The translations under genes and the position numbers were made by a program. The notes under the pieces are model-generated. The model did no database searches. It was not told the DNA's origin and was given only the letters and a program-made list of their open reading frames with translations. A stretch of DNA of 47,110 nt from IMG/VR virus record IMGVR_UViG_3300020152_000029, positions 1 to 47,110 of that record, one strand, 5' to 3'. Position 1 is the stretch's first letter. Every line of letters begins with the position of its first letter. The DNA comes from a virus. Positions 1-33,107 of the stretch are shown piece by piece.

Positions 1-3000
1 TGGCTTCACCCACCGCCTTCAGCATCACATCGCCGGATTCGTGACCCATGTTGTCGTTGACCCACTTCAGGGAATCGACATCCACGCTTACCTGAACAGG
101 CAGCTTTTCAGATTCGTCATAGGCGCGGCGGTTGCCGAGACCGGTCAAGTCATCGACCAGCAGCGCCTTGCGCATTTCCTCGGAAGACATCTGCTCGACA
201 CGCTTGCGCTGTTCGGTATTGGTGCGGCGGTCTGGTTCTGGAGCAGGATTTGTCAGTCCACGAATAGCATTATTCGCGGCAGCGTCATCCAGATCCATGT
301 AGTAGTAGTCTTCAACGGCCTCGTCAATCTGTGCCTCAGTAACGCCGGCCTTCACTGCCTGCGTGATTAGCTCACGGTCCAGACGGTCATACTTGTTGGC
401 GATTGCCATTTCCGGGTGGTCAATGGCGTTGTTGGCCATGAAGAATCCATACGAGAAACCCTCGGGCGTCGCGCTGCGTGCGTTCTTGGTTGCCAGACTC
501 TTGCCGCCGTACTTCTGGTGCATCTTGCTGCCCTCGGTAGGCTCAACCGGGGCAATAGGCAGGTCGGCATTGAATCGGCCCCACAGCAAGGTTTTCTTGG
601 TGTACGGGTCGCCAATATGATTCGGGTCGAATGACAGGCGCCATGGTGGCAAACTGCCCAATTCCTCGATACGGCCAACAGGGTTTTCAATCGCCCAGAT
701 GGCGGGCTTGAAGTGTTCAATGGTGGCCTGCGTCATGTGGACCAGCTTCACGCTGGCCGCGGTCCTGCCGTCCTTGTCCTTGGCCTTGAAGTGCCGGGCA
801 CCGCTTACCGCGAAGTCAGTACATGGGCATGCTGCGAGAATGGCATAGACATCATTGCCATCGAAGTGGCCGAACAGATCAGCGAAGTAGTCATGGCTGA
901 AGTTGTTGATGTCACCGATGTTGATTTCCTCACCGTTGACCTCGTTCATTTCCTCGGACTGGATATCAAAGCGATACACCTGATAACCAGCCTCTTCCCA
1001 AGGTTGTGACCACTTGCCGGTCAGGTCGAACAGCGACAGCACGATACGGTCACTATTGGCGCTGCGGCTCTTATCGTCCTTGCCCTGGGCCTTGGCATGC
1101 GCCTTCCACTCGGCAATGCGCGCCTTGGCTTCTTCCACGGTCATCCAGCCGTGGTCTTTGTGGTAGACCTTTACCTTGTCATTGAGGCGAACAATGTCGT
1201 TCTTGGCCGGCGCGTCGAACAGGTGGTGAACCTGCTCTCCACCCTCGAACATCGATTCGTGAGCCGCTTTGAACTCATTGACGATCTGACCTAGTTCGCG
1301 GTCATCAACGCCTAGGTCGGCATGCTCTGGGGCAGTGCTTTCCTTGGCTTTTATTGACTTGTTAATGCCTGCCAGATGCTCTTGAATAGGCACTGCCTCA
1401 TACTTGGCAGTATTGAGCGCATCCACCTTCTTCCGGTCGAAGGTTTCCATGACGACTTCGCCGGTTTCTTTGTTACTGATAACCCAACTGGATGAAGGCT
1501 TTACTTCTGAAGTAGGCTGACTGAACAGGTCACGCGCCCCACGCGCCGCGGCCTGATCAGCTGGCCGGTCACTGCCGGTCAGTACAAAATCATTAACTTG
1601 GGAATCTGCCTCGGCCTTCTTGCTTGCAGTCTCATCAGCCTTGCGCTGATCGGCCTTGGCTTGGTCGCGTGCGGCTAGGTCTTGTTGGCTTTGGGCCGAG
1701 AGGGTAAGTTCATCGCCTGCTGTCTGGACAGGAGGCGCACGAGTTTGAGGCGGCGTTCCTTCGGCATTGCCGCTATCTTCTGCATTGCCGGTGTCTGCAC
1801 CAGTTCCTTGGCTTTCGGCTGCAATTTCGATCTCTTCATTGAGTACCCTCGTGAGCTCTCTTTCAATTTCCGCCTGTGTCTTGCCGGCATTGGCGTCTGC
1901 TACCGTTACGTCTACCTGAGTAACAAACTCTGAACCGAAAATTCGGGTGGCTTCAGTGATGGCCAGATCAAGCGCAGCTTGCTCTTCATCGCTGAGCTCG
2001 TCGTACTCTGCATAATAAGCCTCTGACTTAGCCTGAGCAATGTTTTCAGTGCCTTCTGGGGTGTAGACATCAAACCCGCCCATAGCATCGGATAATGTGT
2101 CTCCGAATGCCGCAACCGTATCACCTACTGGATATCCAAGCTCCAGCAGCTCTTCGCGCATGGTATCCAGGTCTTTGCTGTTCGCCGAATTGTTGAAGCT
2201 GCGCATGATGCCGGAGCCGAATGACTTCATATCCTGCGGATCCAGACCCCATTCTTTCTTGGCCTGATCGAGATTGAGACCGCCGAGTTTGGCCATCGCA
2301 ACCAGAACATCATCCTTGGCGGTATTTACGCGTTTGTTCGCCTGAGCGCGTTCCTTGGCCAGACGACTTCGATTTTCCTTCGCCGCAAGCGCTTCCGGTG
2401 TATTGGTGGCCGCGTCCTGCAGTTGTGTCAACAAGTCATACAAAGACTCGTCACGCTTGAACATATTGGCCCAAGTCTTGAACTTGGATGCGCTGATGGG
2501 CTGACCGTCCATGAGCTTCTTGGCAGCGGCCAATGCGGCATCAAATGTACGTTCCTTGCCAAGCTGTGCAGCTGCGGCGCGACGTTTAACCAATGCCTCT
2601 ACGGTAGGGCGAAGGTCAAGCGATGGTGTTGGCGGAGAATCAGACTCGACAACAGGCTGCAAGAATGCTTTCTCGTCCTGCAGCATTTCCTTGAAGCGCG
2701 GCATCGGCACCGGCACAACACCACCCATGCCCTTCCAGTTCTTGTCGTAATTGCTTCGATACGCGGATTCAGCCTCTTCCTGGCTGGCATAGCCGATATA
2801 CACCTTTGGCTCATCGAACTGACCGGTAGCGGGATCGATCTGGTTCACCACGTAAACATCGCCGTCATAGTCTTCTGCTGTACCGGGCTTCACATTGACA
2901 TCGATATGTTCCTTGTCGGGTGCGCGAGCCTTCACGCCTTTGACATAGCCGTAGTGGCCATTCATCGTGCGCGACCATTCCTTGCCGGACTTATCCTTAC

Positions 3001-4432
3001 CAGAGCGGGTGCTGCCGTCCGGGTTCTCTACACTGATATTCAGACCGCCAACCTTGGCGCGGCCTACCTTGTAGTTACCTGCTTCCTTCTGGGCTGGCGT
3101 CGGTTCAGGAAGATCGTTCTGTGGAGATGTGGCGGCTTCATGCGCACCAGCTTCTAATGCATCGTTGGTGGAGTCTCCCGTTCCAGCAATCTGATTTTCC
3201 TCGCTGCCAGCTGCAGATGGTCCGGTAGAACCCTGACTTCCCCTGTCGGCGTCACTAGGGAGTAAAACGCTATCTCCTGTGCTTCTTGCAGGCTGATCAG
3301 CTTCAAGTCCACTGGTTTCTGTAGCCACTGCGGCAGGCTGTCCAGTTGTGCTGACATCTTGTTCCCCTCTCTTAATGCCGGCCGCTGCCTTGCGCGCTCC
3401 AATTTCTGCGTCCAGGGACTCGGTAAGAATCTCGAATTCGGTTTTTGGTGGAGCGCCGGTTGCTGTGGCTTGTTGAAGCAGTGCATCCTGATCAACAGCG
3501 GTAGCTGGCGCAGGTAGGTCGGCTGGCTGCGCTTGTTCCTCTGCCCTGCCGCGGAATGCACCGCCAGCGAATCCGCCCATGACTCCGCCAGTCAAGAGAC
3601 CCATGGCCGCGGCATTGTCTACTCCATCGAACATGGGGCGGTCCAGAGCGACATTGCTCCAGATCTGTTCCTGTACGGATTGCGGCAATTCCTCGAACAC
3701 ACCTTCAGATATGCCAGCTTCCAGAATGCGACGGCCAACGCCCTTCTTTGCCGCCTCTGCGGCTCCGCCGGCCATGATGGTATCGATATCATTGATGCCG
3801 AGTTTCTGTGCGAGCTTGCCGCCGGCTGCGCCGAGCACTGCGGTACCAACACCAGACCCTGCAGCGGCCAGGCTTTGCTTCGGAGTCAACAGACCGTCAT
3901 CGGTCTCCTGGCGGATTCCTTCAGCTGCAAGACCTGCACCCACTGCACCTTCACCAATGGCACCAGCAAGCACTGGAGACATGCCCGTAGCCGCCTTCAA
4001 GGCGCGAGCTGCCACACCCCCGGCACCCATGGCTGGCAACGATTCAACGACGGTATGAGCGATCGTGCTCGGGTTTTCTACCGCAGTCTTGACGGTATCA
4101 ATGAATCCATCAGCTTCGGCCACCTTGCGGTTGGCTTCTTTCTGTTCCGGGGAATAGTATTCATCGAGGAATTCTTTGGCCTGTTTCGGCTTGAAACCGA
4201 ACCCTTCTTCAGCCACCTTGCCGGCGACGCCACCGGTTGCTATATCTGCCAGACCTACAGCCATTTCAGGGACTGCAACGGCACCCTTCAATGCGGAGAT
4301 AGCGGTATCGCCTACGGCGCGGCGAACTACTCCGCTTTTCTCGTTATCCAGCGAGCCATCAAACGGTTTGAGTTGGGTTGTGGTGCTGACTTCAGGCGAA
4401 TCAAGCTCACCATCGAAAGGTTGAAGTGCCAA
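1..4432 (-). CDS. Giant polyvalent protein (InPase + DNA MTase-like + GGDEF-like), 3' end outside window
   Basis: The frame stays open for 1,477 codons and leaves the window without a stop, so the protein is partial. Domains in order: residues ~20-260 Gly/Ala-rich and helix-prone; ~453-586 a phage inorganic-pyrophosphatase-like (InPase) domain (GHYGYVKG at 492, EHIDVNV, FDEPKVYIGY); ~980-1020 a segment with TGEVVMETFD seen in many phage giant proteins; ~1128-1340 a cytosine-methyltransferase-like domain with ACPCTDFAVSGA (Cys1204) and IENPVGRI (~1248); from ~1420 the first half of a GGDEF-like fold, DDLTGLGNRR (1427) then DVDSLKWVNDNMGH. The start is TTG at 4432 with AGGAG 7 nt upstream. Polyvalent proteins are thought to be packaged and injected to protect or prime the incoming genome; that role is inferred here from domain make-up and from its place beside virion genes. 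Domain calls are by eye. Confidence 0.86.
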   Translation of the reverse strand, partial: MALQPFDGELDSPEVSTTTQLKPFDGSLDNEKSGVVRRAVGDTAISALKGAVAVPEMAVGLADIATGGVAGKVAEEGFGFKPKQAKEFLDEYYSPEQKEANRKVAEADGFIDTVKTAVENPSTIAHTVVESLPAMGAGGVAARALKAATGMSPVLAGAIGEGAVGAGLAAEGIRQETDDGLLTPKQSLAAAGSGVGTAVLGAAGGKLAQKLGINDIDTIMAGGAAEAAKKGVGRRILEAGISEGVFEELPQSVQEQIWSNVALDRPMFDGVDNAAAMGLLTGGVMGGFAGGAFRGRAEEQAQPADLPAPATAVDQDALLQQATATGAPPKTEFEILTESLDAEIGARKAAAGIKRGEQDVSTTGQPAAVATETSGLEADQPARSTGDSVLLPSDADRGSQGSTGPSAAGSEENQIAGTGDSTNDALEAGAHEAATSPQNDLPEPTPAQKEAGNYKVGRAKVGGLNISVENPDGSTRSGKDKSGKEWSRTMNGHYGYVKGVKARAPDKEHIDVNVKPGTAEDYDGDVYVVNQIDPATGQFDEPKVYIGYASQEEAESAYRSNYDKNWKGMGGVVPVPMPRFKEMLQDEKAFLQPVVESDSPPTPSLDLRPTVEALVKRRAAAAQLGKERTFDAALAAAKKLMDGQPISASKFKTWANMFKRDESLYDLLTQLQDAATNTPEALAAKENRSRLAKERAQANKRVNTAKDDVLVAMAKLGGLNLDQAKKEWGLDPQDMKSFGSGIMRSFNNSANSKDLDTMREELLELGYPVGDTVAAFGDTLSDAMGGFDVYTPEGTENIAQAKSEAYYAEYDELSDEEQAALDLAITEATRIFGSEFVTQVDVTVADANAGKTQAEIERELTRVLNEEIEIAAESQGTGADTGNAEDSGNAEGTPPQTRAPPVQTAGDELTLSAQSQQDLAARDQAKADQRKADETASKKAEADSQVNDFVLTGSDRPADQAAARGARDLFSQPTSEVKPSSSWVISNKETGEVVMETFDRKKVDALNTAKYEAVPIQEHLAGINKSIKAKESTAPEHADLGVDDRELGQIVNEFKAAHESMFEGGEQVHHLFDAPAKNDIVRLNDKVKVYHKDHGWMTVEEAKARIAEWKAHAKAQGKDDKSRSANSDRIVLSLFDLTGKWSQPWEEAGYQVYRFDIQSEEMNEVNGEEINIGDINNFSHDYFADLFGHFDGNDVYAILAACPCTDFAVSGARHFKAKDKDGRTAASVKLVHMTQATIEHFKPAIWAIENPVGRIEELGSLPPWRLSFDPNHIGDPYTKKTLLWGRFNADLPIAPVEPTEGSKMHQKYGGKSLATKNARSATPEGFSYGFFMANNAIDHPEMAIANKYDRLDRELITQAVKAGVTEAQIDEAVEDYYYMDLDDAAANNAIRGLTNPAPEPDRRTNTEQRKRVEQMSSEEMRKALLVDDLTGLGNRRAYDESEKLPVQVSVDVDSLKWVNDNMGHESGDVMLKAVGEA

Positions 4433-4456
4433 AATCTGTCTCCTAAAGAGAAAGCG

Positions 4457-4470
4457 ACGCCTCACGGCGT
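4457..4470 (-). repeat. Leader hairpin, copy 1 (GTGA loop)
   Basis: On the minus strand ACGCC-GTGA-GGCGT forms a 5-bp stem with a GNRA-type loop, 25 nt upstream of the polyvalent gene start and followed by CTTTCTCTTTAGGAG. It is one of five related intergenic hairpins in the late region. The spacing and the following pyrimidine-plus-SD stretch closely match the copy at 11660-11674. Confidence 0.55.
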
Positions 4471-11681: not shown

Positions 11682-12914
11682 TTACCTTGCTCTGCGCGTT
11701 ATTTCTGCTTCCGCATAGCTTCCCGCCTGAAGAATCGAACCCTCAGAATTGTTACCCACTACAACGAACTGCCTGATGCCGTCCTGCTCGCGAACCATGC
11801 TGGCAGCATTGATCATCAGACCTGGCGCCAGCGCCTTTTCTGCAAGAATCTCGGCAGCACCTGCTTCGTGTCCGATCACCGGACCGCGCTCAGACATCCA
11901 GATGTACTCATTCGTCCTCGGGATGATTCTGGCCGTGTTGGCTATGCCGCCGAACTCAAAGACCTCGGTTAACACCGGGCTCATGGTGCCAGCCTGGCCG
12001 ATAAAGCGTGTCTGGTCGGCGCAGACATACAGTCCGCCGCCTTTGGTACCAGCGATTACGGTTACTTCCGCTCCAAACTTGTAATAGTTCTTGCGACGGT
12101 CAACATGGTCATAGTCCAGCGCATTGGTCCGCCATACCACGGTTGGATCCGCAGCATCAATCATGAATATGCAGCCATTGGAATACGTGAGGCCGATAGC
12201 GAAAGGTGGCGGAGACTGGTATGCAGTACGCAGCTCGACACCTACAGGCATGGTCATGATGGTGGTGAACTGGTCCAGCGGGCTCAGTTCCTTGGCCAGA
12301 TAGGGCACTTCACCGTTTGGCGTGCTCATGTAGAGCCGTTTCTTTGCGACATCCGCCGAGTCAGGTACCGGCAATGCCGTAGTCGCAATGCCACCAACAG
12401 AATTCAGGGTGATGCTGGACAACAATGACGCGCCAGATTCGCGGCCGTCAGCCATTACGTAGGTCATTGCCAGATGATATGCGCCCGCCGTGAGCTGACC
12501 CGTAGTGAGCGATAAAGCGGGAGCACTTGCCGGCACCTCGACGCCCCAAGGAATAAGAGCACCATTCCTGATGATGGCCGAGGCTGTTGCGCAGCTCACA
12601 TAGATATCACCATTAAGCGCCAGGAATGATGCGCGATTTGCGCCGGCATTGAATGTGCCGATGATGGTCAGAGTGCCGTCAGCGTTGAACTTCTTGATCT
12701 TGTTGTCATGGACCAGGTATGCATTACCGGCGTTGTCATCCCACATGCTATGAGCGCCTCCCAGCTCAAGCACGCGCTGCCTTCCCTTCCGCATGCGCAG
12801 CTTGCCCGAATCGGTGATATCCATGTTCACGATACGACGTGCGGTATCGCTGCCAAGCTCGTTATCCTGGTGGATGTTATCCATGCCACGCTGGAATCCG
12901 TCGATGCGCGCCAT
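11682..12914 (-). CDS. Beta-propeller-like tail protein, P22 gp10-type candidate
   Basis: 410 aa, rich in short beta strands. The opening ARIDGFQRGMDNIHQDNEL, the RIVNMDITDSGKLRMRKGR segment and repeated blade-like units (HSMWDDNAGNAYLVHDNKI; RASFLALNGDIYVSC; FAIGLTYSNGCIFMID; GGLYVCADQTRFIG; NEYIWMSERGPVIG) fit the class of phage beta-propeller tail proteins to which the packaged-DNA stabilisation protein gp10 of P22 belongs. Length is slightly below P22 gp10. The gene follows the head-tail adaptor gene with a TAATG overlap, the order expected of podovirus neck genes. The structural class is fairly likely; identity with gp10 function is an inference. Confidence 0.75.
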   Translation of the reverse strand: MARIDGFQRGMDNIHQDNELGSDTARRIVNMDITDSGKLRMRKGRQRVLELGGAHSMWDDNAGNAYLVHDNKIKKFNADGTLTIIGTFNAGANRASFLALNGDIYVSCATASAIIRNGALIPWGVEVPASAPALSLTTGQLTAGAYHLAMTYVMADGRESGASLLSSITLNSVGGIATTALPVPDSADVAKKRLYMSTPNGEVPYLAKELSPLDQFTTIMTMPVGVELRTAYQSPPPFAIGLTYSNGCIFMIDAADPTVVWRTNALDYDHVDRRKNYYKFGAEVTVIAGTKGGGLYVCADQTRFIGQAGTMSPVLTEVFEFGGIANTARIIPRTNEYIWMSERGPVIGHEAGAAEILAEKALAPGLMINAASMVREQDGIRQFVVVGNNSEGSILQAGSYAEAEITRRAR

Positions 12915-13579
12915 TACCAGTACGCCTTAGTGCGATGTGGCAGGTTGGCATTCTCATTCCTGCGCTGGTTGGCATCGGGACGAGTACCGAAATACTCTTC
13001 GAACTTGGCCAGTGCCCTGGCGGACTTCTCAGGATTGAGTGTCTCAGAGTCTGGTTTCTCATAGGCGCGATGCAATACCCACTGAACTAGGTGCTTATGA
13101 TGGATTCGGTTGATTTCAGGACAGTCTTTTTCCGCCGCCATGGGTCTACGCGGTAGCCGGAAAACTTCGATATTCAGGGTGTAACTGCCATCCACCACAG
13201 AATCCAGCTCAAGTTTGGTGTCGTAGCGGATGATGCCTGTTGGCCTGCGGGATTCAGTACGCCAGTTCGGACGGATCCGGTCCAGCTCGTGACGGTCGGT
13301 AATGTCCAGCCGATACCTGACACCGGCAGCATCAGTGAGACTGACGTACTCGATTTCATGAATCAGTTCGTGCAATCGATACACGGAGCCATCGGCCTGA
13401 CTGACCGCAATCTGGCAGATGGCTGGATCTTCTTTCTCCGGTATCAGGTTGGCACGGAGACAGGCTTCTTCTTCTGCCTCGTTGAACCAGCCGATAACCT
13501 CGTCACTGCTCCAGAGATACGGTTTAACCGCATCGTCTGCGTCCACACGAAACGAGGCTTCGAGCTGAGAGAGGTTCAT
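12914..13579 (-). CDS. Head-tail adaptor (head completion) protein
   Basis: 221 aa. The N-terminus (LSQLEASFRVDADDAVKPY then WSSDEVIGWFNEAEEEACLRANL) matches the opening of the phage adaptor family that docks below the portal (DUF6682-like): a first helix, a Trp-anchored helix with acidic run, then a beta domain (VYRLHELIHEIEYVSLTDA), and a C-terminal helix with PEINRIHHKHLVQWVLHRAY and an FEEYFG end. It overlaps the RyR gene by ATGA and the propeller gene by TAATG. This position between head and tail genes supports the call. Confidence 0.8.
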   Translation of the reverse strand: MNLSQLEASFRVDADDAVKPYLWSSDEVIGWFNEAEEEACLRANLIPEKEDPAICQIAVSQADGSVYRLHELIHEIEYVSLTDAAGVRYRLDITDRHELDRIRPNWRTESRRPTGIIRYDTKLELDSVVDGSYTLNIEVFRLPRRPMAAEKDCPEINRIHHKHLVQWVLHRAYEKPDSETLNPEKSARALAKFEEYFGTRPDANQRRNENANLPHRTKAYW

Positions 13580-14391
13580 TTCAGGCCGTATTGGTCAATC
13601 AACTGGATGACTTCTTTGCGTGCCGTTTCGGTATTGATGCCGACGGGTAGCTTCCGGCCTGCAAAATGCGTCTTGGCATATTCGCGGCATGCGGCAATGG
13701 TCATGTTGTTCACGGCATCGCGCGCCTGCTGCAAATCTTCCTCAGTGTCCTTGTCCTTGTTGGGATTGGGTGCCGTCGCCTGTGGTGCCTGCGCAGCTTC
13801 ACCGATATCGCCAAGAACATACTGATCAGGATGGCGCAGCAGAAGAACTGCCTTGTCCTCGGGAACCAGCTCAGTGCCGCCTTGGGTGAATTGAATGCGA
13901 GTACCGTAGAGATTCTCAATGTAGGTTTCACGTTTGCCCACATACTTGACAGGCGTGTAACCAATGGGTGTGCCAGATTGCTTGGCGGGCTCGATATTCC
14001 TGCCCTTCTTTGCTGGCTCAGGCTCGACTTCTGCGGGCTTCTCTTCCGGCAGTGACAGAGCAGCCTTTACCGTGCCATAAAACACCTGGTCGCGTGTCTG
14101 CAGCTCTTGGGAAAGCTCGTTGAATGGAAGAATGTTGGGGTGCGTCTTGGCTTCCTCATTCACTTCCTCGCCATACACCCATCCATCAGACTGTTTCTGG
14201 GCAAGCCACTGGTTATGCAATGCATCGAATCCAGCTTCAGGGTTGGCGATCAGGAATTCCACATCCTTCAGCACGCTATCCTTTTTCTCGTCCGGGGCTT
14301 CGTCCCAAGGCGCCTGTGGTTCGGCACCAATAGAAACCGTATAAGCGGCAGTGATGGCATAGGCCAGTATTGCGATGGTTGTAGGCTTCAC
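13576..14391 (-). CDS. RyR-domain protein in the head-neck gene block
   Basis: 271 aa, GTG start with AAGGAG 7 nt upstream. Residues ~5-95 match the RyR (ryanodine-receptor) domain: an N-terminal helix with ILAYAITAAY, PWDEAPDEKKDSVLKDV, HNQWLAQKQSDGWVYGE, then KTHPNILPFNELSQELQTRD. A Pro/Glu/Lys linker follows. Then comes a small beta region (ETYIENLYGTRIQF ... ELVPEDKAVLLLRHPDQY) like those of phage neck proteins, and a basic C-terminal helix. RyR domains in prokaryotes and phages are thought to bind small ligands or proteins, but the role here is unknown. It could be a structural protein or an injected or packaged sensor. Confidence 0.78.
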   Translation of the reverse strand: MKPTTIAILAYAITAAYTVSIGAEPQAPWDEAPDEKKDSVLKDVEFLIANPEAGFDALHNQWLAQKQSDGWVYGEEVNEEAKTHPNILPFNELSQELQTRDQVFYGTVKAALSLPEEKPAEVEPEPAKKGRNIEPAKQSGTPIGYTPVKYVGKRETYIENLYGTRIQFTQGGTELVPEDKAVLLLRHPDQYVLGDIGEAAQAPQATAPNPNKDKDTEEDLQQARDAVNNMTIAACREYAKTHFAGRKLPVGINTETARKEVIQLIDQYGLK

Positions 14392-14414
14392 GTCTTTCTC
14401 CTTTGAATCAACCT

Positions 14415-14444
14415 AAAAAACAGGGCGGGCCGAAGCCAGCCCTG
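14415..14444 (-). terminator. Rho-independent terminator after the decoration gene
   Basis: On the minus strand CAGGGC-T-GGC-TTCG-GCC-C-GCCCTG forms a GC-rich stem with a stable TTCG loop and one mismatch, followed by TTTTTT. It closes the unit ending in the 160-aa head protein and separates it from the RyR gene, whose GTG begins ~25 nt further on. Confidence 0.88.
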
Positions 14445-14464
14445 CTCATTCAGTTGCTGTTACC

Positions 14465-14947
14465 TTATGGGGTGCCAGTGGCAACGCCATACACCAGGAA
14501 GTCAAGCTGACCAGCTGAGGCGTGTGCTGCTACCTCATTGGTTACGATCAGCCATGCGTCTTTTGGCAGCGTTACCGGGGCAACACCGGTATTACCCTGA
14601 CGGGTACGGCCGGCAGTGGCCAGGCTCAGGCTGTTGTTGAAGTAGTCAGCATCCTGGGGCACGTTGGTATCATCGACGCCATCCACATACTCAAAGCCGA
14701 TGTCAGCAGTGATAGTGGCGGTGAAGGCATCGGAAATGATGGCCAGCGAGTCCTGGATGCGGAAGCCGGCAGGGATGATGCCGAGGCGCACTTTGTCGGT
14801 TGCCCCTACAGCGGCTGTGGTATCGCTATCAACGAACACACCGGATGCGTTGGTTTTGAACTGGTAGTCCAGTACGGAGTTATTGCCGTACGGAACACCG
14901 CCATGTTGCTGCAAGTTGCGAGCACGTTTCTTGGTTACGGTAGCCAT
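14465..14947 (-). CDS. Head decoration or capsid-associated protein (160 aa)
   Basis: 160 aa, beta-rich, with an N-terminal basic arm (TVTKKRARNLQQHGG) and a compact domain containing DKVRLGIIPAGFRIQDSLAIISDAF and WLIVTNEVAAHASAGQLDFLVYG. This resembles small decoration-type or stabilising proteins that sit next to the major capsid gene in many phages. There is an AGGAG 6 nt before the ATG. It is followed by a strong terminator and lies just downstream of the capsid gene. The role is inferred from position and size. Confidence 0.78.
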   Translation of the reverse strand: MATVTKKRARNLQQHGGVPYGNNSVLDYQFKTNASGVFVDSDTTAAVGATDKVRLGIIPAGFRIQDSLAIISDAFTATITADIGFEYVDGVDDTNVPQDADYFNNSLSLATAGRTRQGNTGVAPVTLPKDAWLIVTNEVAAHASAGQLDFLVYGVATGTP

Positions 14948-14999
14948 GTCGTTCTCCTAGCTAAAATTGGCAAATCTGGTAGTACGTACATCGAATTAC

Positions 15000-15022
15000 G
15001 AAAGGGGGCGGTTTCCCGCCCC
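15000..15022 (-). terminator. Hairpin terminator after the major capsid gene
   Basis: On the minus strand GGGGCGG-GAAA-CCGCCCC makes a perfect 7-bp stem with a GNRA tetraloop, followed by CTTTCGT. The T-tract is short, so it may act as a partial terminator or as an RNA-stabilising 3' end for the abundant capsid message. Confidence 0.7.
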
Positions 15023-15028
15023 ATTCAC

Positions 15029-16309
15029 TTACCGGCCTGCGATCTTGACGGCGGTATCGATCGCCATCACACCGAAGTCGGTGTATTGGGACTCGTCGCC
15101 GTGGTCGATCAGGAAGCGAACCTTGCTCTTGCCGCCAATCATGCCGATCAGGACTTCCAGCACGTTGTCATGGTCGAGCAGCTTTTCGCTCCAGAAGTAC
15201 GGGTTACCGGTCTTGGTGTTCTTGCCCAAGGCTTCTGCCAGCGCCTGGCCACCCAACAGCAGGGCACGATCAACCGCATGCGTGGTGCCAAAGGATGCTG
15301 GTACCAGGTCGGCAGAGGTTTCATCAGTGCTGGTGTAGGAAGCGCAGTAGCGCAGACTGTCACCGGCATAGAAGCGGATGGGTTTAGGCATCTTCACAAT
15401 CAAGATACCGTTCCACAGACCAGCCTCGCCCATAAAGAGGGGGTTGTTCTTGGCCAACTGAGCACGCGCCATTGCGTTGGATTGCAGGGTGCGGAAGTTG
15501 GTGGACTGTACGAACGAGGTATATTGCTCGCTGGAGACCAGCAGGACGCGCATAGGCGAGTCATCTGCCATCTGGTCATCCTCGTACTTCACTGGTGGAG
15601 GTGGCAATGGCATGCCATCCAGTAGGGTGCGGATACCATCTACAACATCGGCGTTCAGCACGTCGGTGGTAGCGATGGTGATTTCGTTTCCGGATGCCTG
15701 AATATGCTCGATACCGGAACCGGTCGACATATAGTGACGGTTCTTGGTAGGAGCCTTGATGCTGTTCACGCAGATGGTTGCGAAATCAGCGTCAGATGCG
15801 AGAGGCAGAGCCCACTCGATATCGTTGGCAAAACCGCGGGCACCAGCCAGGTGAGCGATGGATAACTGGTCATCCAGACGGCTCATGTAGTTCATGCCAA
15901 GCGCACGCGCCAGCTTACGCAGTTGGTGTGGGGTGCGTTGTTGGGTCATCTTTCCGCCGGCGCTGATTGGGTAACGGCATTGGTCGATGCGCAGACTGTC
16001 TTGCGAGAAGCTCATCTTCTTGCCGAGACCTTCAGCAGTACGGTCACCCATGATTGGCTTACCGCCCAATGGGTTGATCAGGTCAAAGGTGATTTCATCA
16101 CCGGCAACCTTGGTCAAGTCCATGCATCGAACAATCGGCAGATCATTCGAGGACTGGAAGCGCAGCTTTGATTCTGCATCAGACTGTTGCGGCAACTTGC
16201 CGGTCAGTCGGTTAAGGGTAGTCGGACGCTGCATGTTCGAAGCGAACAAGCCAGCGGACTGAATCTGTACGGCCTGTGCTGAACCGTATGGAATGCTTGT
16301 AGCAGACAT
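15029..16309 (-). CDS. Major capsid protein, N4-gp56 family
   Basis: 426 aa. It matches the N4-gp56/DUF4043 major capsid family: KVAGDEITFDLINPLGGKPI near residue 66, the MSFSQDSLRIDQCRYPISAGGKM segment, a long helix QQRTPHQLRKLARALGMNYMSRLDD, and a C-terminal domain with LLLGGQALAEALGK. It builds the HK97-fold procapsid shell around the scaffold. An AAGGAG stands before ATG at 16309, and the leader carries a hairpin of the repeated late type. Scaffold is upstream and decoration downstream, the normal order. Confidence 0.93.
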   Translation of the reverse strand: MSATSIPYGSAQAVQIQSAGLFASNMQRPTTLNRLTGKLPQQSDAESKLRFQSSNDLPIVRCMDLTKVAGDEITFDLINPLGGKPIMGDRTAEGLGKKMSFSQDSLRIDQCRYPISAGGKMTQQRTPHQLRKLARALGMNYMSRLDDQLSIAHLAGARGFANDIEWALPLASDADFATICVNSIKAPTKNRHYMSTGSGIEHIQASGNEITIATTDVLNADVVDGIRTLLDGMPLPPPPVKYEDDQMADDSPMRVLLVSSEQYTSFVQSTNFRTLQSNAMARAQLAKNNPLFMGEAGLWNGILIVKMPKPIRFYAGDSLRYCASYTSTDETSADLVPASFGTTHAVDRALLLGGQALAEALGKNTKTGNPYFWSEKLLDHDNVLEVLIGMIGGKSKVRFLIDHGDESQYTDFGVMAIDTAVKIAGR

Positions 16310-16337
16310 GGTAATTCTCCTTCAATGGGATCAGCGG

Positions 16338-16350
16338 CGTCATCACGACG
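16338..16350 (-). repeat. Leader hairpin, copy 3, before the capsid gene
   Basis: CGTC-GTGAT-GACG on the minus strand, in the 58-nt gap between scaffold and capsid genes, 28 nt before the capsid start. An A/T-rich run precedes it. Same core as copies at 17549 and 20093. Confidence 0.55.
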
Positions 16351-16367
16351 GCGCAAAAATTTAAAAA

Positions 16368-17426
16368 CTAAATCACCTTGGAAGTCATTTCCTCAATCTG
16401 TTTCGGTGTCTTTCCGAGGAAAGTATTCACCAGGGCAAGGCCGTTGGATTCCAGTAGCGCCTCACTTGCATCGTGATGCGCATTGGAGCCTGCCGGTATT
16501 TCAGACAGACTGCCGGGAACCGGTGGCTTTGCTTTAGCAGCTTCTGCCTTGGCCTTGGCCGCTAACTCTTCCTGCGTCAGCTGACCGCCCTTTGTATCCT
16601 TCTGCGCGGTGCCGCCTTTGTAGGTATCAAGTAGCTCGATTACCTGGACCGCAGTTCCTTTATCAAGGATTGCTTGGATACCTGGCTGCGCGAAGCTAGG
16701 CTGGCTTTCCATCCAGTCTTTGAATTCCTTGCTCTCAAAGACCGTTTGGTAGTCCTCATGCTTGCCCGCAATCATGGCGAAATGCTTTTCCTCGGCCGTC
16801 AGCTCTGCGGTCTTCTGCAATGGCTGAATTTTCGATTCAAGCTCCGCCTTCAGGGCTGAAACACGTTCTTCCACACCTTCCTTAATCAAGCTCCCAATCA
16901 AGGGCGCCATCTTTTGGGCCAGGTCAGGAAAATCTTCGTTGAGTGCATCAAGTACAGCCTGTTGCGCCTTGGTATCGCCAGTGCCTTCGTCCTTCTGTTG
17001 AGCCTTCTGCAGGCTCGCGATCAGTTCGTCGCGCTTTAAAAGCTCGTCGTCGCGCTTTTGAATCTCGGCTTCAAGTGCTGTGTTCTTGTTGCGGGCACTC
17101 TCCAATTCAGAATAAGGAATGATGTTCTTGCCATCCTTAGCCTGAACCACAGGCGTGTCATCAACGGTTTCAGTCTTGCCAGTATCCGCATCCGTCTTGG
17201 TTTCGGTTTTGTCCTTATCGGTAGCGGCATCGGGCGCTGCCGCTGTATCCACCTTGTCGTCTATCACTTCCGTGTCGGCAGTGATGTCCTTCTCCGTGGT
17301 ATCGCCCTTTACACTGGCGCCGCCAAACAGCAGTGCAGTGCGTGCCTCTTCAGACATTGCCTCAAACTCTTCAGGATGCTCCATATAATAATCAGCATCT
17401 TTCACTACAACTTCATCACCAGGCAT
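16368..17426 (-). CDS. Scaffolding protein
   Basis: 352 aa, very acidic N-terminal half (ETEVIDDK..DKDKTETKTDADTG) followed by a long charged coiled-coil (~residues 110-215: NKNTALEAEIQKRDDELLKRDELIASLQKA) and a Lys/Ala-rich tail, the usual profile of a phage scaffold. It lies directly upstream of the capsid gene and downstream of the portal. The C-terminal end (TFLGKTPKQIEEMTSKVI) is a helix that could bind coat protein. AGGAG precedes the ATG by 6 nt. Confidence 0.88.
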   Translation of the reverse strand: MPGDEVVVKDADYYMEHPEEFEAMSEEARTALLFGGASVKGDTTEKDITADTEVIDDKVDTAAAPDAATDKDKTETKTDADTGKTETVDDTPVVQAKDGKNIIPYSELESARNKNTALEAEIQKRDDELLKRDELIASLQKAQQKDEGTGDTKAQQAVLDALNEDFPDLAQKMAPLIGSLIKEGVEERVSALKAELESKIQPLQKTAELTAEEKHFAMIAGKHEDYQTVFESKEFKDWMESQPSFAQPGIQAILDKGTAVQVIELLDTYKGGTAQKDTKGGQLTQEELAAKAKAEAAKAKPPVPGSLSEIPAGSNAHHDASEALLESNGLALVNTFLGKTPKQIEEMTSKVI

Positions 17427-17571
17427 TGCATTCTCCTATCTACGGTCATTGACCGCCCACTTATCGCCGTGGCGCGTCAGATAGATAATTACTACTTACA
17501 ACAATGGCTGGCGATGTACTGCCAGCCTCCAGCTGCGGGAACCCAACTGTCATCACGACGTTGGTAGCAGA
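17427..17571 (-). promoter_or_regulatory. Structured leader of the scaffold-capsid transcript
   Basis: A ~140-nt leader runs from the predicted start near 17565 to the scaffold ATG. It holds the fourth late hairpin (GTC-GTGAT-GAC, 17549-17559), a second stem of GGCTGGC/GCCAGCC with an 8-nt loop (17506-17527), and a small CGGTCATTGACCG inverted repeat near 17440. A 30-codon open frame (17461-17553) starts inside the first hairpin but has no ribosome site. The structure suggests RNA-level control. Confidence 0.45.
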
Positions 17572-17612
17572 ATCATTCCACAAAAAAATACCGTGTGCGA
17601 AAAACGTGAACG
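17572..17612 (-). promoter_or_regulatory. Late promoter, box type, for scaffold-capsid
   Basis: Minus-strand box CGTTCACGTTTTTCG at 17612-17598, then AATGAT (-10-like) at 17577-17572, 20 nt after the box. It lies just downstream of the 121-aa head gene. The predicted start is near 17565. The -10 is weak, which suits an activator-dependent promoter. Confidence 0.6.
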
Positions 17613-17630
17613 GTCTGTTATTTATCGCAC

Positions 17631-17996
17631 TTACTTAAATGCCTTCTTGCCATTCAGCCCTACTGAGTAGGTGAAGTTAGTGCCGGCAGAGTGCGTCAGC
17701 ACAACACGCCATGACGACGGCACAATGTCCGCTGCAGCAAGGTTCGCGGCTGCTGCAATGCCCTGCCCTACCTTGAGCACTACGGTACCGACTGCACTGA
17801 TAGCAGAGCCCACAAGCAGGTCGTAATACTTGCCGGATACCGGATCACGACCCTGAATCGATGGGGTCACGGTATCGGTGCCTGGCACTGCAGTAACATC
17901 AACGATGACGTGGATACCATCGAACTGGTCTCCTTCCTGGTCTGGCGTTGAATTGGTGGCCGCTCTCACGGCTGAGGCTAATAGTGTGGCTTGCAT
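17631..17996 (-). CDS. Small head protein, decoration-like (121 aa)
   Basis: 121 aa, beta-rich. It carries a distinctive phage structural segment, VPGTDTVTPSIQGRDPVSG, followed by KYYDLLVGSAISAVGTVVLKVG and a closing strand SWRVVLTHSAGTNFTYSVG. I recall this family from phages, near head genes, without a known function. It sits between the portal and scaffold genes, 10 nt after the portal stop, with AGGAG at 5 nt before the ATG. A capsid cement or minor head role is likely but not shown. Confidence 0.8.
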   Translation of the reverse strand: MQATLLASAVRAATNSTPDQEGDQFDGIHVIVDVTAVPGTDTVTPSIQGRDPVSGKYYDLLVGSAISAVGTVVLKVGQGIAAAANLAAADIVPSSWRVVLTHSAGTNFTYSVGLNGKKAFK

Positions 17997-18005
17997 GGCA
18001 ATCTC

Positions 18006-20075
18006 CTAAGTGGTCGCTGCTGTTTCTTTCTTGGGGGTGTCGGCTGGCTTGTCATCTGCCTTGTCGGCTTCGTGCGCATTGGTTTCTGCGTCGAGCCAGC
18101 GGGCTTCTGCGGTGATGCCCTGATTACGTAGCGTTCCCTTGACCTGCAATTCCTTCAATTCAAGATCGCGCCTCTTGAGATCGATATTGGCCTTGAGTAA
18201 TGCGGCCTCCACGGCCTCATCAATGAGCTGCTGGATCTGTTCGGGCGTCTGCTTGGCCTCGGCTTCGCGGATGGCCATGATGATGTCCTTCTTGTCCGGC
18301 ACATCCATGAGGTTAAGCAGGTATGGCAGCATGAGAATCTGGTATTGCGGCGGCATGGACTTGTAGGCTTCGCTCATGGCGGCGAGCTGCTGCGCCCGGA
18401 ATGTCGGCGTGCTTGGTACATCCTCGAGCACAACCTTGAGCTTGGTGCGCTCAACATCGTTATTCAGGTAGCGGTAACCGTCAGGGTGAATAGTCGGCTG
18501 ATTGAGTGCAATGGAGCGGTCTTCCTTGATGCCATTGCCAGGAATCAGAACTTCCTGCTCCTGCCCGATCATATCTTCGATGATGAGCGACACCAGCAAG
18601 TCGCCTACCTCGGCACGGCCGTACTTGAAGTTGTCATTGATATCGGCAAGGGTCTGGTTGGACTGCTCCACCAGCCCAGAGATAGCGACACCAGACTTGG
18701 CCTGGCCATCCTGTCCCATGAAGCTGTTATAAATGCCGCCGGTACGCTTGATGCCTTCGCGGGCATCAGCAAGACGCTGCGCCTGTTCAGCGTTGAGCTC
18801 GAAGTTATTCTGAACCTCGAACGTGGCGCCCTTCTTGGCCATTTCTTTCTGGTCCAGGATGATATCTGCATCAAGTCGCCCGACTTCACGCCTGAATTGC
18901 TCGTCGGTGCCCTTCACGACTCCATCGGTTCGCACCACACGCACGGCAGACAAGCCCCATTGCATCTTGGAGATACGGGCATTCACTTCGTCCTGCAGGT
19001 ACATCATGCCGCGGATCAGGCCATACGGAATGCCGGTGCGGTCTTCGCGTTTGCCCCAGAAGGCAACATAGGGGAATTTATTGTGGCGGTATGGTGTGGG
19101 TGAATCGTCCAGCTTGTGCGGACCCATGTAATACGCACGGCGCACCTTGCCGATGATGGCCCATTGCGGCTTGATGACACCAGATGCCACAGCCATCAGG
19201 TGGTGTCCGTTCTTGTCGTCGTACTCAACAACACGACCGTCAGGTGACTTCAGGACCATGACGCGCACATAGTTGCGGTACCAGACTTCAAACAGGCAGA
19301 CGCGGTTACTGTATGTATCGCGCCATTCCTGTTCTTCGATGGACCAGCCGCGCTCATCATTAAGCGACATGGCCAGCCCGGTGGAATTACCGCCATCCAG
19401 CGTGATCTGGCTATCGAAATTCCATGCGGTCCAGTTGGTGCCGGCATACCTGATGAGTTCCGCCTTGTCCGGGAACATCAGCTCAGCTAGTTTGCGGTCG
19501 GTCCAGCGGCGGCGCACCAGGTAGCGAGCATCAGAGAGGTCCGGCTTCTTGGCCAGGAAGTCCCAGAACATTTCATTACGGTGAACGAACTCGGTACGGT
19601 ATGGATATTTGAATGGGTCGGTATTGCGGGCTACTTCTACCCAACCGATGCCAACCTTGATCTGGCTGGCATAGGCTTCGGAGCACGAACGGTCGGCATC
19701 TGATTTGGATTCGGCCTGCTTCAGCTTGAAGCTGATGGCCTCGGCTACTTCATCGCCGCCTTTGTCACTATCGGGCACCACGCGCCAGTCGGTTCGCGAT
19801 ACCGCTTCCATGCCCAACACTGCGTCAATCGTGGGGCCAATCAGCGGCTCGATGGCCGGTGGCATGCCTATATCGGCTTGTTTGCGCAGTATCTCGGAGT
19901 CCAGCTGGTTGCCGTCGTAATACTCGGCTTCCTTGTCCGCTTTGGATCTCCAGCGCGGCTGCTCATGAATCTCTTCCATCCATGTGGTAAACATGGACAG
20001 CGTGCATTCGCCATCATCGTTAGCTTGGGGTGTGGCGTAGCCGGACTGGCCAGCCATAACGGCGGTGTGTTCCAT
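18006..20075 (-). CDS. Portal protein, P22 type
   Basis: 689 aa. It has the length and signatures of a P22-like portal: the N-terminal SKADKEAEYYDGNQLD, a VEVARNTDPFKYPY loop, RAYYMGPHKLDDSPTPYRHNKFPYVAFWGKREDRTGIPYGLIRGMMYLQDEVN spread over residues ~310-365, then a helical crown with QIQQLIDEAVEAALLKANIDLKRRDLELKELQ. It forms the dodecameric ring through which DNA is packaged and ejected. The start (ATG, 20075) lies after GGCAGGGAAT. Transcription is likely from the promoter at 20119-20159. Confidence 0.93.
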   Translation of the reverse strand: MEHTAVMAGQSGYATPQANDDGECTLSMFTTWMEEIHEQPRWRSKADKEAEYYDGNQLDSEILRKQADIGMPPAIEPLIGPTIDAVLGMEAVSRTDWRVVPDSDKGGDEVAEAISFKLKQAESKSDADRSCSEAYASQIKVGIGWVEVARNTDPFKYPYRTEFVHRNEMFWDFLAKKPDLSDARYLVRRRWTDRKLAELMFPDKAELIRYAGTNWTAWNFDSQITLDGGNSTGLAMSLNDERGWSIEEQEWRDTYSNRVCLFEVWYRNYVRVMVLKSPDGRVVEYDDKNGHHLMAVASGVIKPQWAIIGKVRRAYYMGPHKLDDSPTPYRHNKFPYVAFWGKREDRTGIPYGLIRGMMYLQDEVNARISKMQWGLSAVRVVRTDGVVKGTDEQFRREVGRLDADIILDQKEMAKKGATFEVQNNFELNAEQAQRLADAREGIKRTGGIYNSFMGQDGQAKSGVAISGLVEQSNQTLADINDNFKYGRAEVGDLLVSLIIEDMIGQEQEVLIPGNGIKEDRSIALNQPTIHPDGYRYLNNDVERTKLKVVLEDVPSTPTFRAQQLAAMSEAYKSMPPQYQILMLPYLLNLMDVPDKKDIIMAIREAEAKQTPEQIQQLIDEAVEAALLKANIDLKRRDLELKELQVKGTLRNQGITAEARWLDAETNAHEADKADDKPADTPKKETAATT

Positions 20076-20092
20076 GTGGGTATTCCCTGCCT

Positions 20093-20103
20093 GTCATCAC
20101 GAC
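20093..20103 (-). repeat. Leader hairpin, copy 5, before the portal gene
   Basis: GTC-GTGAT-GAC on the minus strand, 18 nt before the portal ATG and between it and the -10 of the promoter at 20119-20159. The flanking CTACC(A)(A)CGTCGTGATGACAG is shared with the scaffold leader, so the two leaders look like copies of one element. Confidence 0.55.
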
Positions 20104-20118
20104 GGTAGATGGGAACCG

Positions 20119-20159
20119 ATTCTACATATTTTTAATTTGCGCAACGGAAAACGGGAACG
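20119..20159 (-). promoter_or_regulatory. Late promoter, box type, for the portal
   Basis: Minus-strand box CGTTCCCGTTTTCCG at 20159-20145, followed 20 nt later by TAGAAT (-10) at 20124-20119 with TG two bases before it (ATGTAGAAT, extended -10). The predicted start near 20112 gives the portal a ~37-nt leader. It lies just after the terminator at 20174-20196, so portal transcription begins fresh here. Confidence 0.65.
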
Positions 20160-20173
20160 GGCGCGGATGACAT

Positions 20174-20196
20174 GAAAAAGCCCGCGATGGCGGGCT
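20174..20196 (-). terminator. Rho-independent terminator between terL and portal
   Basis: Minus-strand AGCCCGC-CATC-GCGGGCT, a perfect 7-bp stem, followed by TTTTC. It lies 150 nt after the terL stop and is followed by a separate portal promoter. It would end both terL read-through and the short transcript from the promoter at 20286-20326. Confidence 0.88.
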
Positions 20197-20279
20197 GAAA
20201 GTATCAACACTACAGAGAATTAAAGTGTCCACATAAAGGCTTGCTCCTGGGTTCTAAAGACAAATGGTGTATTGCGCGC
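20174..20279 (-). ncRNA. Candidate ~105-nt terminated RNA
   Basis: The box promoter at 20286-20326 predicts a start near 20279, and a strong terminator ends at 20174, leaving a short transcript with no gene. It contains CCCAGGAG followed 10 nt later by ATG TGG ACA CTT TAA, a four-codon frame (MWTL). It might be a regulatory RNA, a leader whose terminator is read through under antitermination, or a spacer with no role. No known RNA family is recognised; this is a prediction from promoter and terminator signals. Confidence 0.4.
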
Positions 20280-20285
20280 CAGGAA

Positions 20286-20326
20286 AATATAGCACTTGGG
20301 TTAGAGCCAAACGAAAAACGGGAACG
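20286..20326 (-). promoter_or_regulatory. Late promoter, box type, upstream of the candidate RNA
   Basis: Minus-strand box CGTTCCCGTTTTTCG at 20326-20312 followed 20 nt later by TATATT (-10) at 20291-20286, preceded by TG (GTGCTATATT, extended -10). This is the best -10 match of the four box promoters. It sits just after the terL stop, yet a terminator lies ~105 nt downstream. Confidence 0.65.
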
Positions 20327-20346
20327 CTAGCTCAGCAGTACGGCGG

Positions 20347-21915
20347 CTATCTCCAGCTCGGTGGCGGTCTGTTGCCCATGGTTGATGAGTAACCGGACAT
20401 AGTGAGCATTCCGAGTTCCTTTGCCTGTGCCCATTGTCTCAGAGCATCAGCACCTTCGCTATTTCCATCTAGCTTCTCTGGCTCGTTCAGGTATCTGCCA
20501 AACTTGGTGTTGAACTTCCGCTTGTAGTTGTCCAGCCTCTTGAGCCCATCGGCACACAGCATCTCGTCAAAGTAAGCAGACGGGAAGTGTTTCTTGGTCA
20601 GGAAAATGCCTTGGTTGATATCAGCAATGCGCGGCACGATCTCGATATTCTTCATGCCGAGGTCTTCCATCTGTTCCTTGATGGATTTGTTCTCATCATT
20701 GGATAAGCGCTCATGATCCGCGTCGTGCGGGAAAAAATGCTTATTCCAGATATATCCCTTGTCCTGGAGCTGGCCATAATAATGCTGCAGGTCTGCGCCA
20801 TGCTCTTCGTAGTAGCCAATAAACCTGTCTTCCAGTCCAACCGTCTGGTGGAACCAGATAGCGCAACCATCACTATTACCGATATCCCAGAATGTATTGA
20901 CCGGCACGCCGATGATTGGGATACGCAATATACGGCCATTCTTTCTCGCTGCAGTCATCTGGTCAGTGAAGTAGCGACCTTCGCTTGATTGCTCAAACGC
21001 CTCTTGTGGAGTGCTCGGGTATTCTTGCCACATAAGAACCTCGTCCCCTGAAAAGTCTGTTTGTTTGGTTTTGACGTGCCATGCGCGCTGCTCCGGCCTC
21101 AGTACCGTCTTCATCTTTGCTTCAATACTGTCGAAGTATTTGTGTTCCTTGGCAGTGACAACAACCAGTGATGGATCCAGCACGTATTCCGGGGCTTCCC
21201 ACCATGCATAGAAGTGGAACCGATAATCCTTCTTGGTTATCGGCGTCTTCATGTCCTCGCGCTTGATAGATACCTGTGTCATGTCATGGAAATAACCCTC
21301 GGCGCCTTCGGCTGTGCTCTCAACAATCAATATGCCGGACTGTGGGCAAGCCGGTATTGATCCTGTAACAACTTCCTTGGCCTTCTGTGGGAACTTGGCG
21401 CATATCTTCCCGAACTCGGAGATATGCAAGCGATGTGGCGTGCCACCACGATATGAGGTCGCGACGCGGATAGAGCTGTTGTTGTGCTTGAAGTGAATTT
21501 CAGTGGCGCTGTTACCCTTCAGCGGCATCATGGATTTAACGAATTCAGGCAGATTGTCGTAGGCGAACTTCACCTTGTCCCGCAAGATTTCGGCGGCAAC
21601 CTCACGGTGCTGCGCCACGATACCGCAGCGGACATTGTCATTGAACAGCGCATAGTCCAGCCACATGATGGCAACCAGCGTAGTGAACCCTAATTGACGG
21701 GCCTTCAGGATGATATTGCGATGCCACATGCGCTTGATGAAGCGTCTTTGAGCTCGGTTCGGCTTGAATGGAAGCACCAGGTTATCGTCAGGCGTTTCCC
21801 CTTTGACAATGATCTTATACAGCTCACCAGAGAACAGCCGCCACAACGGATCAGACAGCTTTGCTATCAGCTCGGCTGTTGCAACCGCTTGCAGCTCAGA
21901 ATCTGGCGCTCCCAT
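20347..21915 (-). CDS. terL: Large terminase subunit (ATPase-nuclease)
   Basis: 522 aa, P22-like terminase. The N-terminal ATPase shows the atypical Walker A ILKARQLGFTTL (residues ~69-80) and the later LHISEFGKI, a Walker B-like segment. The C-terminal nuclease shows GVPVNTFWDIGNSDGCAIWF, then a DHERLSNDENKSIKEQMED region and GKYFD-like downstream strands typical of the RNase H-fold nuclease. It cuts concatemeric DNA and pumps it into the head. TAATG coupling joins it to terS. The C-terminal tail (SGYSSTMGNRPPPSWR) is extended and probably contacts the portal. Confidence 0.94.
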   Translation of the reverse strand: MGAPDSELQAVATAELIAKLSDPLWRLFSGELYKIIVKGETPDDNLVLPFKPNRAQRRFIKRMWHRNIILKARQLGFTTLVAIMWLDYALFNDNVRCGIVAQHREVAAEILRDKVKFAYDNLPEFVKSMMPLKGNSATEIHFKHNNSSIRVATSYRGGTPHRLHISEFGKICAKFPQKAKEVVTGSIPACPQSGILIVESTAEGAEGYFHDMTQVSIKREDMKTPITKKDYRFHFYAWWEAPEYVLDPSLVVVTAKEHKYFDSIEAKMKTVLRPEQRAWHVKTKQTDFSGDEVLMWQEYPSTPQEAFEQSSEGRYFTDQMTAARKNGRILRIPIIGVPVNTFWDIGNSDGCAIWFHQTVGLEDRFIGYYEEHGADLQHYYGQLQDKGYIWNKHFFPHDADHERLSNDENKSIKEQMEDLGMKNIEIVPRIADINQGIFLTKKHFPSAYFDEMLCADGLKRLDNYKRKFNTKFGRYLNEPEKLDGNSEGADALRQWAQAKELGMLTMSGYSSTMGNRPPPSWR

Positions 21916-22493
21916 TAGTCACGTCCGATCAGCTTCTTATTCTTGGCCGGAGCTGGCTTTACTGGTTTTGTCTCAACCGCATCGGGCTTTGCATCGAAAG
22001 ATATCACTTCACCATCGAACACTTCATTCTCCAGATCTTCGTCTGGTACTACAGGCAGGGTCTTTCCGCTGATCTGCTTATAGAAAAGCAATAACGGATT
22101 CTCTGCGTCAGCGCCATGCAATTGCTTATTGGTGAATACGTTGCCTACTTCCTTGGCCGCTTGTTCCAGCACTGACTGCGCCTGTACGAAGTTCTTCCGG
22201 CTCACATAGTAGTCATGCATTCGCTGCAGGGAGCGCAGCCGGAATATCTTGCTCGCAATGGGTATCTCAAGCGACTCTTCCAGGAAGGCCTTACGGGTAG
22301 CATGGAATACTTCAACCAATTCCTTGGCCAGCGTTTTGCCGCTGATCTTGGTGGGGTCATAGCGCATGACATTCTGGCGCTCGATCTTGACGCCGAATTC
22401 CTCGTTTACAGCTTCCGCTACTTGCGAAGGCGTGTCATGGCATGCAAGTGATTGCACAATGAATAGCTTGATCTCTTTGTTCAGGTCGGCCAT
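21915..22493 (-). CDS. terS: Small terminase subunit, DUF2280-like
   Basis: 192 aa. The N-terminus (LNKEIKLFIVQSLACHDTPSQVAEAVNEEFGVKIERQNVMRYDP) is a helix-turn-helix of the DUF2280 small-terminase type that recognises the packaging site. A central helical oligomerisation segment (RLRSLQRMHDYYVSRKNFVQAQSVLEQAAKEVGNV) and an acidic, Pro/Lys-rich tail follow. It precedes terL with a TAATG overlap, as usual. The packaging initiation site itself cannot be located by eye. Confidence 0.88.
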   Translation of the reverse strand: MADLNKEIKLFIVQSLACHDTPSQVAEAVNEEFGVKIERQNVMRYDPTKISGKTLAKELVEVFHATRKAFLEESLEIPIASKIFRLRSLQRMHDYYVSRKNFVQAQSVLEQAAKEVGNVFTNKQLHGADAENPLLLFYKQISGKTLPVVPDEDLENEVFDGEVISFDAKPDAVETKPVKPAPAKNKKLIGRD

Positions 22494-30731: not shown

Positions 30732-30971
30732 CTAGTTGCTCTTCAACTCTTCCTGATCCACGTAACGCTCCGGATAGAGAATTTCCAGTTCGGAGATATC
30801 CCCACCCTTTTCCTTGTAGAACCTGGAGAGCTTTTCTGCGACATCAGGGGTTACCCCCTGTTTACGTCGCTCGATACGTGAGAGGTTTCCGGGATCGAGT
30901 CCAACCGGCACGGCAACATCATGCAAAGTGAACTTGAGCTTTTTCCTAACGATTTGGAGAGGTGTAGCCAT
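30732..30971 (-). CDS. cro: Cro-type helix-turn-helix repressor
   Basis: 79 aa. TPLQIVRKKLKFTLHDVAVPVGLDPGNLSRIERRKQG is a classical HTH of the XRE family (recognition helix PGNLSRIERR), followed by a helical tail with DVAEKLSRFYKEKGGD. The recognition helix shares NLSR(I/F)ER with CI, and the genes diverge. No ribosome site is seen: the -10 (30978-30983) places the start of transcription at or next to this ATG, so the message may be leaderless. The identification as Cro rests on small size, divergent position and leftward operon. Confidence 0.85.
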   Translation of the reverse strand: MATPLQIVRKKLKFTLHDVAVPVGLDPGNLSRIERRKQGVTPDVAEKLSRFYKEKGGDISELEILYPERYVDQEELKSN

Positions 30972-30977
30972 GCGCCG

Positions 30978-31007
30978 ATTATTGCGCACCACGCAATGCG
31001 CAGTCAA
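30978..31007 (-). promoter_or_regulatory. Leftward early promoter for cro
   Basis: Minus strand TTGACT (31007-31002) and AATAAT (30983-30978) separated by 18 nt. The operator half-sites lie between them, and the predicted start coincides with the cro ATG at 30971. Confidence 0.7.
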
Positions 31008-31044
31008 GAAATTTTTGCGCGTGGCGCTTTGCGTGACGTGCAAA
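30981..31044. promoter_or_regulatory. Operator cluster in the cro-cI intergenic region
   Basis: Two sites fit TTGCG-N5-(C/T)GCAA: 30982-30996 (TTGCGCACCACGCAA) and 31029-31043 (TTGCGTGACGTGCAA), and a weaker third, TTGCGCGTGGCGCTT, lies at 31015-31029. The first sits between the -35 and -10 of the cro promoter. The same sequence type appears twice at the early promoter near 33.1 kb. They are the probable CI/Cro sites. Confidence 0.75.
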
Positions 31045-31064
31045 CCAACCGGAAAATGAGTACC

Positions 31065-31712: not shown

Positions 31713-31713
31713 T

Positions 31714-33053: not shown

Positions 33054-33071
33054 TATCACACGCACGACTCC

Positions 33072-33097: not shown

Positions 33098-33107
33098 GCC
33101 CTTCATT

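Follow-up and report, generated by a model that had tools for sequence, protein, structure and literature searches.

A truncated GGDEF module of a phage clade at the visible end of a polyvalent-protein gene in an uncultured phage

The stretch of DNA analysed here (the window; 47,110 nucleotides) is a whole virus record of IMG/VR (G000:C1:1-47110) and belongs to an uncultured phage. At its edge, a giant open reading frame (ORF) runs into the first half of a GGDEF module, which is a new, truncated member of the GGDEF domains of polyvalent proteins. With moderate confidence, we favour the reading that this module is a feedback-insensitive cyclase making c-di-GMP from GTP, which is ejected as part of a virion-packaged polyvalent protein. 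What we infer in this respect is that the second half is intact in this phage, along with enzymatic activity, GTP specificity, dimerisation and a benefit for the phage. New here appear to be the definition of a phage clade, the conservation of its catalytic residues, the loss of the I-site, a clade-specific tail and the near-absence of the domain from sampled bacterial genomes.

Results

The giant ORF, P0001 (positions 2 to 4465, minus strand), comprises 1488 visible amino acids. Its exact start codon is uncertain and its C-terminus is cut by the end of the record, where the frame is still open. The N-terminal region (residues 34-307; 3545 to 4366, minus strand) matched phrog_30335 (E 4e-110) and is common to giant phage virion/ejection proteins. 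Some relatives of this region are annotated as structural proteins, and phrog_2206, virion RNA polymerase, was matched more weakly (E 2e-7). It is followed by an InPase domain of the polyvalent-protein type (residues 458-596; 2678 to 3094, minus strand; PF18823, E 2.5e-47, 160.5 bits compared to a cut-off of 26.8) and by a C5-cytosine-methyltransferase-like domain (residues 1134-1357; 395 to 1066, minus strand; phrog_757, E 1e-42), which contains CPC and ENP motifs and matched PF00145 with a score under the cut-off (E 6e-4). The GGDEF module starts at residue 1411 and extends to residue 1488 (2 to 235, minus strand). Judged from its sequence, P0001 is thus a polyvalent protein, uniting InPase, methyltransferase-like and GGDEF domains in one ORF of at least 1488 amino acids. 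As is typical of polyvalent proteins, it is encoded together with virion genes and its modules are exchanged among orthologues.

The preliminary description of this DNA had recognised the first half of a GGDEF palm at the window's edge, which was borne out by Pfam and profile scores. Both peptides it had relied on were recovered exactly in the ORF running from 4465 to 2, DDLTGLGNRRAYDE at residues 1438-1451 (window 154 down to 113, minus strand) and VDVDSLKWVNDNMGHESGDVML at residues 1461-1482 (window 85 down to 20, minus strand). The Pfam GGDEF profile (PF00990) aligned with positions 3-64 of 161 (E 8e-5); the score of 22.8 bits lies just below the cut-off of 23.8 because only about one third of the profile is covered. 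With a profile made from 57 relatives, the last 94 visible residues of P0001 scored 126 bits, compared to 39.5 bits with a profile of cellular GGDEF domains. The best of 1000 shuffled sequences reached 7.7 bits, and the half-domain is therefore far above chance. Visible in the module are the N-terminal helix of the phage clade, the stretch LTGLGNRRAY, the metal-binding Asp and the guanine-contacting Asn and Asp. As had been stated before, the (S/G)GDEF loop falls past the record end, which is a point against the cyclase reading as regards the window's own gene. Since the window is the entire IMG/VR record, the catalytic loop was read in relatives. An exact 24-mer scan of viral contigs for the rest of the gene yielded no overlapping contig; its matches were two contigs only, both distant relatives that were known already.

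The genomic context agrees with a virion protein. Upstream of the giant ORF, virion and packaging genes (11682 to 22493, minus strand) code for a small terminase candidate, TerL (phrog_2), a P22-like portal, a scaffold candidate, the major capsid protein and the head closure protein Hc3 (phrog_8040). Pfam matches in this block were PF13252 (E 4e-132) and PF16510 (E 4e-103); the scaffold and small terminase candidates were assigned from their position alone. The podoviral virion cassette of the window ends with the polyvalent protein. The virion-type setting described earlier holds for the cassette with its portal, capsid and head-closure genes and for the N-terminus of ejected-protein type. 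Packaging and ejection themselves are what we infer from gene position and N-terminal homology, P0001 being probably packaged in the virion. The right arm (30921-39920, plus strand) harbours genes for a CI-like repressor, RecT, RecE and a DNA methyltransferase, which suggests a phage of the temperate type. A megablast search with 12 kb of the window did not reveal a close DNA relative among annotated phages; the closest matches among annotated proteins come from Pseudomonas phage 8P and from the F116/H66 group. Since little came out of comparing the small virion genes of the window directly with the loci of relatives, PHROGs were used to examine the virion context. Among 20 ORFs tested upstream of giant GGDEF ORFs in relatives, 11 had matches to podoviral families for tail, head closure, internal virion proteins or DNA ejection.

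The GGDEF module occupies an exchangeable position. One relative (L002) shows the domain order of the window protein with N-terminus, InPase, middle region and methyltransferase. In the window, L002, L005 and L009, the methyltransferase region ends alike (EDYYYMDxDDxAANxAI), and the sequences beyond this point differ: the slot is filled by GGDEF in the window, by InPase in L005 and by other sequences in L002 and L009. The junction behind the methyltransferase-like domain is a clean case of module swapping between near-orthologues. As these near-orthologues lack a GGDEF domain in the slot, the module is dispensable for the giant protein. It is very unlikely that the copy in this phage is broken or truncated past the record end, irrespective of what the clade does. 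Its second half lies beyond the record and the same slot is devoid of GGDEF in the three near-orthologues, but every functional position that can be seen is intact, the frame stays open up to the record end and no member of the aligned set has an internal stop in the domain.

A detectable InPase was found in 11 of 49 giant GGDEF ORFs, in the stretch examined, and lay within 75 residues of the GGDEF domain in six of the 11. In L025, L026, L042, L044, L049 and L067, the two domains are 5-74 residues apart, with InPase on either side. An InPase within the giant protein could clear the pyrophosphate product of the cyclase in place. Because InPase was detected in only 11 of the 49 ORFs, it was rejected as an obligate partner that would pull the cyclase reaction by pyrophosphate removal, and is at most a possible accessory. 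In another relative, a reverse transcriptase gene (L028:1506-2900, plus strand; phrog_1423, E 2e-106) lies a few genes upstream of a giant ORF with GGDEF; it may belong to a diversity-generating retroelement next to a tail cassette.

Relatives were collected by two scans of viral contigs, one scan of 84,980 species genomes and from annotated Yuavirus and Vojvodinavirus copies. With an SLKW pattern, 57 distinct phage-type domains were gathered. On 54 contigs with the domain, it was located 49 times inside an ORF of 665-4435 amino acids and five times in a small protein. Beyond the edge of the window, the continuation in these relatives is not devoid of a palm but carries the full domain. For L010, which shares 65% identity with the window in the half that is visible, AlphaFold2 (52 aligned sequences) gave a model of the domain with a mean pLDDT of 95.2. 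Searched with Foldseek and VIA-align, it found GGDEF domains throughout the top matches listed, mostly diguanylate cyclases. The best PDB match had a Z of 16.3 and an rmsd of 1.9 over 134 residues; the best viral models were a long protein (48% identity) and the GGDEF protein of Bordetella phage CN1. The module is thus of the GGDEF-family palm fold, as predicted for the window half by profiles and for the full domain by the model of its relative.

The preliminary description had asked for the GG(D/E)EF and I-site motifs to be inspected. The metal-binding Asp, the guanine-contacting Asn and the Gly-Asp-Glu core are present in all 57 domains, the Lys near the triphosphate in 56. By its first residue, the motif is SGDEF in 46, GGDEF in eight and AGDEF in three, with the Phe replaced in two. 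An RxxD I-site in register was missing from all but one of the phage-type domains, compared to its presence in 20 of 27 sampled cellular domains. This inhibitory site is common in diguanylate cyclases but not required; for the window itself, its position falls past the record end. On the other hand, a tail of the type K..RE..G.RAxRG..P is near-invariant across the phage-type domains. It had been left open whether the domain is an intact enzyme or a degenerate one that sequesters nucleotides; the former is favoured by the sequences because the catalytic residues are invariant in the 57 relatives.

It is unlikely that the domain is non-catalytic, be it as a trap for bound GTP or cyclic dinucleotides or as a structural or protein-interaction module. 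As a rule, GGDEF receptors rely on the I-site or have given up residues of the active site; in the phage domains, by contrast, it is the I-site that has gone, and the active site does not vary although the phages are very diverse. Degenerate GGDEF receptors are well known (PMC3974145), and the prevalent Ser at the first motif position would agree with such a role. The replacement of the first Gly by Ser is also a point against the cyclase reading itself, as the exchange of Ala for Ser inactivated VCA0965; activity of SGDEF and AGDEF enzymes is, however, possible (PMC3974145).

The base-contacting Asp, associated with GTP specificity where Ser is associated with Hypr enzymes (PMC6456294), is present in the window and in 50 of the 57 domains; six have Asn and one has Thr. 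A Hypr/cGAMP type was rejected for the window, as the Asp is kept. Ser occurs at this position in no member. Since the Hypr criterion groups Ser and Thr enzymes (PMC6456294), the one domain with Thr is a possible exception. Distinct from cellular cyclases are SLKW, a His before the motif, the Ser as its first residue and the RAxRG tail. The change from Phe to Leu-Trp in the DxDSLKW stretch, that from Arg to His before the motif and the RAxRG tail could alter the product, which is a further point against the cyclase reading. It is conceivable, though rather unlikely, that the enzyme is active but does not form 3',3'-c-di-GMP, its product being a linear or mixed cyclic dinucleotide that might, for instance, act as a decoy for defence effectors gated by cyclic nucleotides, or that it transfers nucleotides to another target. 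The retention of the catalytic residues alongside these deviations is consistent with this, and related palm enzymes yield varied cyclic dinucleotides, with some defences reading or guarding such pools (Panoptes, PMC12657218). However, the guanine-contacting Asn is kept throughout, as is mostly the Asp, and the Ser of the Hypr enzymes is not found.

In a maximum-likelihood tree, all 57 phage-type domains fell on one side of a branch with 100/99 support and 27 cellular domains from two genomes on the other. As the SLKW pattern was used to collect the set and few cellular domains were sampled, this result is partly by construction. Without recourse to the pattern, 185 genomes from the class to which the genome of L083 belongs were searched with a profile, at most 18 of up to 60 GGDEF candidates per genome being scored; this revealed only two phage-type matches (E<=1e-25), located in open frames of 1455 and 4954 amino acids. 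The second is an SGDEF domain without SLKW and, thus, the pattern is not the whole basis of the clade. This domain (L122; 3507 bases of the 4954-amino acid frame in a bacterial genome) has DNFK in place of DSLKW and may be an outlying relative that stands between the phage clade and the cyclases of cells. The pattern scan of the 84,980 species genomes confirmed five loci only, among them L086 and L087, which were incomplete or atypical. From these sequences, the phage-type domain would form one phage clade, partly by construction, that is nearly absent from the sampled bacterial genomes. A recently captured host cyclase was rejected in view of the 100/99 branch separating the 27 cellular domains and the two matches in 185 genomes.

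Discussion

The kind of protein described here is already known, since GGDEF domains in polyvalent proteins, e.g. a prophage protein of Acetonema longum, were published by Iyer et al. 2017 (PMC5512222). In the main text of that study, they are called "not very widespread" and are proposed to act as a cyclic-nucleotide weapon upon delivery. P0001 resembles those proteins in its giant size, in its combination of InPase, methyltransferase and GGDEF domains and in being encoded by a phage together with virion genes. Unlike that main text (PMC5512222), analyses of the clade, the I-site and individual residues are given here. Cellular diguanylate cyclases (PleD, SiaD, DgcB, WspR) share the fold and the catalytic core with the phage clade but differ in that they usually have GG(D/E)EF, the RxxD I-site and a partner domain for sensing or dimerisation; with the phage profile, cellular cyclases scored 43-71 bits, compared to 134-257 bits for clade members. 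The Hypr GGDEF enzymes and the mCpol/Cas10 palm polymerases are related palm cyclases with other cyclic nucleotides as products. The former have the Ser at the base position that the phage clade lacks, and mCpol is nearly without the GGDEF motif whose GDE core the phages keep.

According to the cyclase reading, the polyvalent protein would be made late, packaged in the podoviral virion and ejected into the host along with the DNA. In the cell, the GGDEF module would dimerise, bind two GTP via the invariant Asp/Asn/Asp and (S/G)GDEF residues and convert them to c-di-GMP. Because the allosteric I-site is missing, the product would not shut off the enzyme and, thus, c-di-GMP would be raised from the first moments of infection. 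The phage would likely gain an early reprogramming of the host state or an interference with cyclic-nucleotide immunity. Cyclases need to form a dimer, yet the module sits within a giant, presumably ejected protein, which argues against this reading. Bordetella phage LK3 encodes such a cyclase and its lysogens are hyperbiofilm formers, a correlation without a test of the gene (PMC8471281).

A more far-reaching idea is doubtful, namely that the whole phage-restricted clade, podoviral fusions and Yuavirus/Vojvodinavirus single-domain forms alike, evolved as synthases of cyclic dinucleotides that are insensitive to feedback and reach the cell at time zero, with a product directed against cyclic-nucleotide immunity and not towards biofilm control. 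The product might, for example, occupy receptors of CBASS or of the Panoptes type. Most known phage counter-defences against nucleotide signalling work by degrading or sequestering the signal; if the idea were true, a conserved, intact cyclase without I-site carried in with the DNA would follow the opposite strategy and supply it. In the literature searched, which included few subscription papers, no experimental case of a phage-encoded cyclase acting as counter-defence was found.

The single-domain genes of Yuavirus and Vojvodinavirus (YuA gp44, MP1412_43, MW2) belong to the same clade, with SLKW, (S/A)GDEF, the RAxRG tail and no I-site. They differ by their length of approximately 150 amino acids and by their location outside any virion protein, in a region of small genes upstream of the terminase genes. 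As YuA, MP1412 and MW2 are isolated phages, what the polyvalent GGDEF domains produce and what they serve for is directly testable with this 150-residue protein and a laboratory phage. In GenBank, the single-domain forms are labelled 'diguanylate-cyclase GGDEF domain', and in YuA and MP1412 they adjoin a putative anti-restriction gene.
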